Part shown: piece after piece, positions 2,501 through 5,488 of the stretch | Layout of the letters: every line of letters starts with the position of its first letter | Position numbering within the stretch: the first letter of the stretch is position 1 | IMG/VR virus record: IMGVR_UViG_3300022859_000019 | Location: 1 to 23,976 of that record | Origin: a virus | Direction: 5' to 3' (one strand) | DNA: 23,976 nucleotides | Translations under genes and position numbers: made by a program | The notes under the pieces: generated by a model | What the model saw: only the letters and a program-made list of their open reading frames with translations | Told to the model about the DNA's origin: nothing | Database searches by the model: none

Positions 2501-3189
2501 TGGATCAGGGCTCCCCAGAATGGTTCGAGGCGCGTTTAGGCAAGATCACTGCTTCGCGAATTGGCGACGTGATGGCTAAGGGGCGCTCCGGCGCTCCGTC
2601 CGCAACCCGCGCCAAATACTTGGCGCAGGTCTTGCTCGAACGCCTGACGGGCGACGCGGCGCTGTCTTTCCGGTCTGCAGCGATGCAGTGGGGCAATGAG
2701 CAGGAGGACGCTGCGCGCGCTGCCTACGAGCTGCGCACCGGGAACGACGTGATCACGACCGGGTTCGCGGTACACCCGGAGATTCAAGGCGCCGGCGCCT
2801 CCGCAGATGCGCTCGTTAACGATGACGGCTTGCTCGAGATCAAGTGCCCTGAGTCGCACACGCACCTGGACACGCTCACGGGAGCGCCTATTGATAGACG
2901 GTACGTCCTGCAGATGCAGTGGCAGATGGACTGCGAGCAGCGCGACTGGTGCGACTTCGCGTCATTTAACCCCCGCTTCCCGCCTGGGCTGCAGTTGCAT
3001 GTCCGCCGCGTTGATCGTGACGAGGCGCTGATCGCAGAGATCCGCGAGGCGGTATGGACTGGTCTTGCCGAGATCACGAAGCGCCAGAAAGAACTGCTCG
3101 CGCTGATGGAGGACGCCATCCCCGGCCTAGACGACATGGGAGAGGGCGTGCAGGCCGTGTATCCAGATGGGTGCCGGCCCGGTGATTGA
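2500..3189 (+). CDS. YqaJ-family (lambda exonuclease-like) recombinase nuclease
   Basis: This 229-residue protein matches the YqaJ alkaline exonuclease family, which resects double-stranded ends to give 3' overhangs for the annealing protein. Visible features are the N-terminal QGSPEWFEARLGKITASR (3-20), an acidic helix WGNEQEDAARAAYE with E67/E69, D103 in GASADALV, the E113-x-K115 pair in LLEIKCP, and Gln138/Gln140 in VLQMQWQ. Together these form the expected metal site. AAGGAGG at 2486-2492 sits seven bases before ATG 2500; GTG 2497 is an alternative. The last eight codons lie inside the 85-bp direct repeat, so this 3' end exists twice in the window. Confidence 0.93.
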   Translation: MDQGSPEWFEARLGKITASRIGDVMAKGRSGAPSATRAKYLAQVLLERLTGDAALSFRSAAMQWGNEQEDAARAAYELRTGNDVITTGFAVHPEIQGAGASADALVNDDGLLEIKCPESHTHLDTLTGAPIDRRYVLQMQWQMDCEQRDWCDFASFNPRFPPGLQLHVRRVDRDEALIAEIREAVWTGLAEITKRQKELLALMEDAIPGLDDMGEGVQAVYPDGCRPGD

Positions 3190-3251
3190 CAGAACAGGAG
3201 GGTCCGCCGTGGCCAGTGAGATCGAGACGACCACCAGCGCCGAGAGCCCGC
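3167..3251 (+). repeat. 85-bp perfect direct repeat, copy 1
   Basis: The segment starting ATGGGTGCCGGCCCGGTGAT and ending CGAGAGCCCGC recurs without mismatch at 4246-4330. Copy 1 holds the last codons and stop of the exonuclease gene, a strong binding site AGGAGGG (3196-3202) and a GTG start (3209). It thus spans a gene junction. The flanks on both sides differ from those of copy 2. Confidence 0.97.
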
Positions 3252-4006: not shown

Positions 4007-4491
4007 GAACGATGCGAGAACAACACGTTGCGATGCTCCGCAAACGAGCAGCAGACGCGCGCGCCTGCTGGCACGGCATTCTGAAACACCCAGTTGATCC
4101 AGAGGGGCAGGAACTCCTCGACGGCGATGCTATGGGCCTGAGAGCCGATGCCGCGTGGTTCGATGAATTGGCCGATCTGCTATCCCTGCCCGACATACCC
4201 GGCCCCGGTGCTGGGCAACGCAGCCGCGCTTACGCAATGTCGATCATGGGTGCCGGCCCGGTGATTGACAGAACAGGAGGGTCCGCCGTGGCCAGTGAGA
4301 TCGAGACGACCACCAGCGCCGAGAGCCCGCTCGACGGCCTCGAGTTGCAGGAGCTGAGGGAAGAATGCGAGGCGCTGATCGAGAACGTCGATGTGTGGCA
4401 GGAATACGCGCTCGACCCGGGCGCGGCCCGGGTCGTCCTGCGCTTGTTGGATGCGCACGACGCTCGGATCGGTGGGTGCGGCGGTGAGTGA
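4003..4491 (+). CDS. Chimeric ORF fused across the second repeat copy
   Basis: GTG 4003 overlaps the previous stop, with GGAG at 3991-3994. Residues 1-81 (starting MRTMREQHVAMLRKRAADAR) look like one small helical protein. Residues 82-110 are encoded by repeat copy 2, and the rest (LDGLELQELREECEALIENV onward) looks like a second protein. The second protein could start by itself at GTG 4288, which has the repeat-borne AGGAGGG site, giving a 67-residue product. The fusion probably arose when the repeat was created. The C-terminus overlaps the methyltransferase start by eight bases. Confidence 0.55.
   Translation: MRTMREQHVAMLRKRAADARACWHGILKHPVDPEGQELLDGDAMGLRADAAWFDELADLLSLPDIPGPGAGQRSRAYAMSIMGAGPVIDRTGGSAVASEIETTTSAESPLDGLELQELREECEALIENVDVWQEYALDPGAARVVLRLLDAHDARIGGCGGE
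4246..4330 (+). repeat. 85-bp perfect direct repeat, copy 2
   Basis: Identical to 3167-3251, 1079 bp downstream. Here the repeat lies wholly inside an open frame and contributes 29 codons (MGAGPVIDRTGGSAVASEIE onward). It includes a duplicated but out-of-frame piece of the exonuclease 3' end. Recombination between the copies would delete 1079 bp and place the GTG 4288 gene directly after the exonuclease stop. Confidence 0.97.
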
Positions 4492-5488
4492 TCAAACCAG
4501 AGACGGCCGCGCCCGCGTGACCGCCTACTACAACGAATTCGACGCTTACGCTGCCCAATGGCTGCGGAACCTCATCGACGCCGGCCACATCGCGCCCGGC
4601 ATCGTGGATGAACGCAGCATCGTGGAGGTGCAGCCATGCCCCTGCCAACCGTTCAGCGTCGCCGGAGCCCGCGGCGGCGTCGAGGATGAGCGACACCTAT
4701 GGCCTGAGTTTGCGCGGCTCATCGGCCAGTGCCGCCCTGCAAAAATTATTGGAGAGCAGGTTAGTTCAACGCTTGGGCGTGAATGGCTCTCCGGAGTACG
4801 TCTTGACCTGGAGGCGATGGGATATGGCGTCGGGGCCGTCGATATTGGCGCTGCGAGCGTCGGCGCGCCGCACATCAGGCAGAGGCTATGGTGGGTGGCC
4901 GACTCCGAAAGCGACGGACGGGGAAAAGCCGGCAGGGATGAGCCACGCACGGCGGGAGGCGGGAAAGGCGCTCGACAGCTTGCCTCTGGTGGCGTCCGCG
5001 GCGGGCTGGCCGACACCCACAACGCAGGACTCGAGCGGCTCCCGGAGCTCGACAGCGACGAGGAACAATCCAGACTCGAAGCACTGGCCGGGCGTGACCC
5101 TGACGGACGCAGCCCTGTTCGCAGCGAATCTAGCGACACCGGGCGATCCGGTGAGTTCGATGGCGGATCTGACGGCAGCGGGCTGGGCGACACCGTCGGC
5201 GCGAGACTGGAAAGACACGCCGGGGATGGCAACTACAGGGACCAACCCGGACGGATCGACGCGCTCCAGGCTGGATCAGCTTCCGCGACAGGCAGCGATA
5301 GCGGCGACCCCTGGGCAGACGTCCGATGGATCGACTGCGCAGACGGCAAAGCGCGGCGGCTTAAATGTGGAATTGAGCCGCTGGCTCATGGGATACCCGG
5401 CCGAGTGGGCCAGTTGCGCGCCTACGGAAACGCTATCTGTCCTCAAGTCGCGGCGGAAATCCTGATGGCCTGGGGGGTGGAATCATGA
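4484..5488 (+). CDS. C5-cytosine DNA methyltransferase, internally deleted (motif I missing)
   Basis: The 334-residue product fits phage Dcm-type methyltransferases, which move a methyl group from SAM to cytosine C5. Visible parts are an N-terminal TAYYNEFDAYAAQWLRNLI (13-31), the catalytic PCQPFS motif IV (Cys54), GEQV in the motif VI position (90-93), QRLWWVAD as motif VIII (133-140), a low-complexity variable region, and GNAICPQVAAEI as motif X (about 315-326). Between VEVQP and CPCQPFS (junction near 4636) I expect about 40 residues with the SAM-binding FxGxG motif I; they are absent from all frames here. Activity is therefore doubtful. GTG 4484 is used as start; GTG 4517, giving MTAYYNEF, is equally plausible. 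The next gene starts in an ATGA overlap. Confidence 0.85.
   Translation: MSDQTRDGRARVTAYYNEFDAYAAQWLRNLIDAGHIAPGIVDERSIVEVQPCPCQPFSVAGARGGVEDERHLWPEFARLIGQCRPAKIIGEQVSSTLGREWLSGVRLDLEAMGYGVGAVDIGAASVGAPHIRQRLWWVADSESDGRGKAGRDEPRTAGGGKGARQLASGGVRGGLADTHNAGLERLPELDSDEEQSRLEALAGRDPDGRSPVRSESSDTGRSGEFDGGSDGSGLGDTVGARLERHAGDGNYRDQPGRIDALQAGSASATGSDSGDPWADVRWIDCADGKARRLKCGIEPLAHGIPGRVGQLRAYGNAICPQVAAEILMAWGVES
4686..5465 (+). CDS. Overprinted 259-codon ORF with GWPTP repeats inside the methyltransferase gene
   Basis: The +2 frame of the methyltransferase encodes a protein starting MSDTYGLSLRGSSASAALQ. It has YVLTWRRWDMASGP and RASARRTSGRGYGGWPTP, then repeated GWPTP/GWATP units each followed by T/S-x-x-D (AGWPTPTTQDSSGS, AGWATPSARDWKDTPG), and ends near ELSRWLMGYPAEWASCAP. 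From memory, proteins of this exact style are common in phage and metagenome annotations, so either a true overprinted family or a widely propagated shadow ORF is possible. Its GWPTP units are the other reading of the methyltransferase LADT/GDT units. No good binding site precedes ATG 4686. Confidence 0.35.
   Translation: MSDTYGLSLRGSSASAALQKLLESRLVQRLGVNGSPEYVLTWRRWDMASGPSILALRASARRTSGRGYGGWPTPKATDGEKPAGMSHARREAGKALDSLPLVASAAGWPTPTTQDSSGSRSSTATRNNPDSKHWPGVTLTDAALFAANLATPGDPVSSMADLTAAGWATPSARDWKDTPGMATTGTNPDGSTRSRLDQLPRQAAIAATPGQTSDGSTAQTAKRGGLNVELSRWLMGYPAEWASCAPTETLSVLKSRRKS

Follow-up and report, generated by a model that had tools for sequence, protein, structure and literature searches.

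Overlapping frames at a phage cytosine methyltransferase locus are likely to encode the two polypeptides of a split enzyme

The locus and its two reading frames

The stretch of DNA analyzed here (the window) is an IMG/VR virus record of 23,976 bases, for which an exact search found no near relative. Two long, overlapping frames lie on its plus strand (Table 1), downstream of genes for an Erf-like annealing protein and a RecE-like exonuclease, and followed on the opposite strand by the terminase and other phage genes. Frame B, which starts with a GTG overlapping the stop codon of the upstream ORF and is open from position 4391, matches the C5-cytosine methyltransferase family PF00145 (E 8e-13) and phrog_363 (E 9e-62). 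Frame A is in the +1 register relative to frame B, and matches phrog_1008 (E 1e-23) and phrog_31772 (E 4e-18), two families whose name, 'DNA methyltransferase', is an annotation label only; a search for Pfam or NCBIfam families in frame A gave no match. Elsewhere in the window, an exact 85-nt direct repeat (3167-3251 and 4246-4330) supplies two different small ORFs with the same leader, ASEIETTTSAESP, along with a GTG start and an AGGAGG-like sequence; it suggests a recent duplication or rearrangement, or an assembly fault. Further upstream, a glycine-rich ORF at 64-660 is built of ∼12-nt units, with 19 overlapping copies in register, and its remaining frames are open and repetitive too.

Table 1. 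Features of the two overlapping frames, in window coordinates.
Feature	Position	Strand	Basis
Frame B (putative alpha), C5-cytosine methyltransferase ORF	4484..5488	+	PF00145 and phrog_363 matches
Frame A (putative beta), overprinted GWPTP-repeat ORF, +1 frame, 285 aa from ATG 4608	4608..5465	+	ORF list, phrog matches, start-zone statistics
Frame B, junction of in-frame deletion (∼37 residues) removing motif I (HFFAGIGGW...)	4628..4640	+	Window reads SIVEVQPCPCQPFS
Frame B motif IV, PCPCQPFS, catalytic Cys loop	4634..4657	+	Sequence; columns (nearly) invariant in alignment A2
Frame A N-terminal unit, helix and beta hairpin (residues 14-62 from 4686)	4725..4871	+	AlphaFold blocks, pLDDT ∼66-87
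Frame B motif VI equivalent, GEQV (usual ENV)	4751..4762	+	G and E invariant in alignment A2; Asn replaced
Frame B motif VIII, RQRLWWVAD	4877..4903	+	Alignment A2
Frame A GWPTP unit 1 (W71 from 4686); VADS in frame B at 4895	4893..4907	+	Sequence
Frame A GWPTP unit 2 (W108 from 4686); LADT in frame B at 5006	5004..5018	+	Sequence
Frame A GWATP unit 3 (W167 from 4686); LGDT in frame B at 5183	5181..5195	+	Sequence
Frame A motif IX, LNVELSRWLMGYPAEW	5361..5408	+	hhalign to single-chain VIII-X segment, 95% probability
Frame B motif X, GNAICPQVAAEI	5426..5461	+	Sequence; G, N and A nearly invariant in alignment A2

A preliminary description of this DNA had proposed that two family-like proteins are read from one stretch, and both ORFs are indeed present, with stop counts and codon shuffles (see below) that go beyond chance. 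The motifs it quoted were all found, PCPCQPFS, QRLWWVAD and GNAICPQVAAEI in frame B and MSDTYGLSLRGSS, GWPTP/GWATP and RWLMGYPAEW in frame A, as was the correspondence of the repeat units, with VADS, LADT and LGDT of frame B read as GWPTP, GWPTP and GWATP in frame A. Its statement that frame B keeps the methyltransferase motifs holds for those quoted, which include motif VIII (RQRLWWV) and motif X (GNAICPQ), but fails for motif I, the AdoMet-binding FxGxG motif. A FAGIGGW-type stretch is present in 87/87 aligned relatives, and among the 88 sequences is absent only from the window, where its deletion leaves both frames open. Because a search for a second contig covering the junction found none, a real deletion is indistinguishable here from an assembly fault. 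If the deletion is real, the window's frame B product probably does not bind AdoMet, and with motif I missing the window's own copy of the enzyme may be inactive.

The ATG at 4686, plausible at first as the start of frame A and used as such in the preliminary description, is probably not the start because ATG is depleted at this position in relatives (14 observed vs 35 expected by synonymous choice; most have ACG) and canonical starts nearby are at chance level. The A frame is open for ∼50 codons further upstream in 75/76 non-redundant loci (48.5 expected). In a zone 50-68 codons upstream, 35/76 have an ATG together with a Shine-Dalgarno sequence (13.4 expected), while in stretches outside this start zone ATG was not in excess. 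The window's equivalent is the ATG at 4608, where a clear Shine-Dalgarno sequence is absent, and comparison with the relatives makes this the likely start. The first stretch of frame A shows little amino-acid constraint. Escherichia phage N15 departs from this pattern: its frame A has an upstream stop, and its ATG adjoins DERHLW, beside the conserved part.

Selection acts on both frames

We gathered 80 IMG/VR loci using frame B alone as the query and 80 using frame A alone. All 80 of the frame B-collected loci carry frame A, in the same +1 register, and all 80 of the frame A-collected loci carry both frames; a few of the collected loci have breaks that shift both. Stop codons in frame A were compared with those expected after shuffling that swaps codons among synonyms, and so keeps the frame B protein and its codon usage. 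Over the overlap the window has no frame A stop, against a mean of 4.1 after shuffling (p = 0.0012), and frame A is stop-free in 83 of the 88 loci, against 3.0 expected; shuffled B codons would give frame A an average of 2.9 stops per locus. The third frame behaves as predicted from the shuffles, with 8.34 stops per locus observed and 8.29 expected in the 88 loci. Similarity to the window's frame A exceeded that in all 100 B-preserving shuffles in 81/81 loci (mean z 10.4), and when frame A was held fixed the similarity of frame B was likewise never reproduced, in tests that leave shared ancestry in and for which the upstream part of the same gene is the control.

Synonymous codon agreement among the 88 aligned B genes was 1.78 times the expectation within the conserved part of frame A, compared with 1.14 times upstream of that part. 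The constraint rises in a sharp step at 4718, dips to ∼0.9 at frame B motif VIII, opposite a linker in frame A, and fades after ∼5430. Across 37 non-overlapping pairs, B-synonymous third-position change inside the overlap ran at 0.66 of the upstream rate (95% interval 0.61-0.73), and for first-position transversions the ratio of A-nonsynonymous to A-synonymous changes fell from 1.21 upstream to 0.86 inside the overlap. Between motifs VIII and IX, mean identity was 31% for frame A vs 23% for frame B, with A higher in 91% of pairs, and in the catalytic segments frame B was the more conserved frame. In Arthrobacter phages (Colucci gp83 and relatives), the frame A homologue occupies a separate gene, of which only the first part overlaps the methyltransferase gene, and beyond this overlap its dN/dS is ∼0.05-0.3, indicating purifying selection. 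At the level of sequence, these results establish the overprinted family as real, with selection on the protein in each frame. Synonymous constraint in the methyltransferase frame had been set beforehand as the measurement whose failure would count against the overlap; constraint instead rises inside frame A. Together with selection outside the overlap in the Arthrobacter phages, this step favors an overprinted family over false proteins copied between databases, the two options named in the preliminary description, and the widespread phage 'GWPTP' proteins are very probably real second subunits and not annotation errors.

Division of methyltransferase motifs between the frames

Frame B is a C5-cytosine methyltransferase and most likely the catalytic alpha polypeptide of a split enzyme. 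The catalytic fold was examined in the chain of a relative (L001); the model of this complete alpha has the catalytic fold of M.HhaI, to which its best Foldseek matches are (E 2e-7). In the same model, residues 195-278 have pLDDT values below 50, and the segment between motifs VIII and X is predicted to be disordered. The frame B chain is also without motif IX, which was found in frame A.

The most conserved stretch of frame A is LNPxxSRWLMGxPxEW, which aligns (hhalign 95%) with LSPAFVEWMMGLPAGW of actinophage methyltransferases; in those enzymes a single frame encodes it together with motifs I-VIII and X. These single-chain enzymes have PTP repeats too, which like WLMGxP are read in the methyltransferase frame and fall between motif VIII and motif X; in several of them the repeats precede motif IX, at the position expected for the target-recognition domain. 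A profile of the single-chain enzymes aligns with M.HhaI 271-308 and places the WLMGxP stretch on KLHPRECARVMGYP, motif IX of that enzyme, with GNxV (motif X) next in order, a match that is weak alone (1.2 bits) and becomes convincing only through order, spacing and the following GNxV. On the basis of these alignments and the L001 model, alpha is without motif IX and without a folded recognition domain, and frame A, at the recognition position, has motif IX; thus, frame A most likely supplies both motif IX and the target-recognition position, as a beta polypeptide. The recognition part is assigned to frame A because alpha is disordered there and because of where the PTP repeats lie. The N-terminal unit of frame A overlaps frame B motifs VI-VIII and has conserved residues at L22, L26, G34, S35, T41, W42, A58 and S59 (counted from 4686). 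A catalytic motif of its own is absent from frame A, its AlphaFold model is of low confidence (mean pLDDT 63), a search for fold matches to this model found none, and a PDB sequence search with the frame A profile gave no match. Because the model is of low confidence and without a fold match, the suggested recognition role of the PTP repeats is argued from their position.

Three layouts of these motifs were found. Motifs I-X are on a single chain and in one frame in Gordonia phages and others, with a shorter +1 ORF; the enzyme is split in Arthrobacter phages, with motifs IX and X on the second gene; and in the window, N15, Rhodobacter, Burkholderia and enterobacterial phages the two genes are overprinted, with motif IX in frame A and motif X in frame B. 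The single-chain form is represented by the Gordonia phages Derg and MelBins, together with the IMG/VR loci L183, L185 and L186. In these, the methyltransferase frame itself carries the PTP repeats and a motif IX of the LNPxFVEWMMGLP type, after motif VIII and before motif X; unlike in the window, their +1 ORF ends earlier. N15 gp58 belongs to the same methyltransferase family as frame B, with a frame A ORF in the +1 frame, but its alpha has motif I and only the methyltransferase is annotated. The overprinted layout could have arisen from the single-chain one through two shifts of frame, one ahead of the recognition segment and the other separating motif IX from motif X. The public record of Xanthomonas phage PhiXhv-18 (2170-3162) lists the two overlapping frames as separate annotations, each under the name 'DNA methyltransferase'. 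In Komagataeibacter phage phiKX1 (2444-3809), the frame A ORF ends at ∼3287 and frame B is open throughout, and the motif IX end forms a separate ORF ∼400 nt beyond the end of the frame A ORF.

The closest parallel in layout is M.EcoHK31I, a C5 methyltransferase of two polypeptides with the target YGGCCR, whose two genes reportedly overlap in different frames. As outlined in PMC3404938, citing Lee et al. (1995, NAR 23:103), its larger polypeptide carries motifs I-VIII and X and its smaller one motif IX, and a passage in PMC3439449 describes the enzyme as naturally split. The likeness drawn here is one of motif layout, with motif IX alone on the second chain and motif X on the first, and we do not claim that the window pair belongs with M.EcoHK31I. 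The two also differ: the larger M.EcoHK31I chain has motif I in that outline, as do the 87 relatives, whereas the window's alpha has none; the predicted recognition domain of M.EcoHK31I is placed there in the larger subunit, whereas that of the present family is read here as lying in frame A; and M.EcoHK31I is part of a restriction-modification system, whereas such a nuclease was not recognized beside the window gene. A search of plasmids for a restriction-modification version labelled M.EcoHK31I returned 11 plasmids, all labelled 'DNA cytosine methyltransferase'. M.AquI, an alpha/beta C5 methyltransferase, is described in PMC3404938 as naturally split after motif VIII, with motif IX on the second polypeptide. 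In M.AquI motif X is also on the second polypeptide, an arrangement similar to the Arthrobacter pair Colucci gp82/gp83 but not to the window. A search of the literature for this overlap in phages found no description of it.

Interpretation of the overlap

Taken together, we consider it likely that the stretch holds two genuine overlapping genes, for both polypeptides of a split C5-cytosine DNA methyltransferase. Alpha would be the frame B product, in which a low-complexity LADT linker, devoid of a folded target-recognition domain, connects the catalytic domain (motifs IV-VIII in the window, I-VIII in relatives) to motif X. Translation of frame A would begin within the alpha gene and give beta, with its N-terminal unit, the PTP repeats at the recognition position, and motif IX. 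In an assembly modelled on the M.EcoHK31I layout as given in PMC3404938, alpha and beta would associate into one enzyme, with the PTP region reading or contacting DNA, and this enzyme may methylate the phage DNA, most simply as an escape from host restriction.

Other readings have to be weighed against the split enzyme. Frame A might encode a genuine overprinted protein that has a job apart from the methyltransferase, such as regulation or the inhibition of restriction, and is not a subunit of it. Joint action is not required of overlapping genes, frame A has neither a Pfam nor a fold match, and no counterpart of its N-terminal unit was recognized in solved methyltransferases. However, its C-terminal motif is the methyltransferase motif IX that frame B is missing, the actinophage segment with PTP repeats and motif IX belongs to the methyltransferase chain, and frame A constantly accompanies frame B, so that we regard a separate job as improbable. 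The two could instead be joined into one longer B-A chain by programmed ribosomal frameshifting, which would place the catalytic part and motif IX in one polypeptide, and A is in the +1 frame and open well upstream of its conserved part. We rejected this reading, which we hold to be very improbable, because a strongly conserved synonymous site that might serve as a shift signal was not found upstream of 4718; in addition, the upstream A frame has an excess of ATGs accompanied by a Shine-Dalgarno sequence, and the fusion would be without motif X, which sits in frame B.

It is scarcely credible that frame A is an artefact, held open in +1 by GC-rich composition and a conserved methyltransferase and then copied by annotation pipelines. 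Stops are scarce in GC-rich DNA, and many frame A matches are in records named only 'DNA methyltransferase' or hypothetical, but shuffles that preserve frame B seldom leave frame A open, the third frame is as expected, and frame A is under purifying selection outside the overlap. At the level of the family, shuffle similarity, synonymous constraint, stop counts and the Arthrobacter dN/dS refute an artefact. A further reading concerns the window copy only, and is compatible with a split enzyme in the family: the locus may be decaying, with motif I lost from alpha and both frames open only because the deletion is recent and in frame. This is a real possibility, though somewhat short of an even chance. 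The absence of motif I is unique to the window among the 88 aligned sequences, and the nearby 85-nt repeat suggests a recent rearrangement or an assembly fault, but both frames are otherwise intact, with most of the family's conserved residues, and the junction had no second contig match for comparison.

For the split enzyme, the motif comparisons suggest that the overprinted layout is apparently a widespread and mostly unannotated phage variant of the M.EcoHK31I-like layout. We put forward more tentatively that phages of Proteobacteria, Actinobacteria and probably other hosts share a large and old family of overprinted subunits, in which a target-recognition part made of PTP repeats is read out of frame with catalysis and the frame of motif IX depends on the clade. 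If true, few prokaryotic families of overlapping same-strand genes would be larger, and changes in the repeats would alter DNA specificity and the alpha linker together. On the split-enzyme reading, orphan phage methyltransferases annotated as one gene would be half enzymes, which bears on cloning, specificity prediction and anti-restriction work, and the single-chain, split and overprinted forms of one enzyme would provide a large natural data set on the evolution of long same-strand overlaps.
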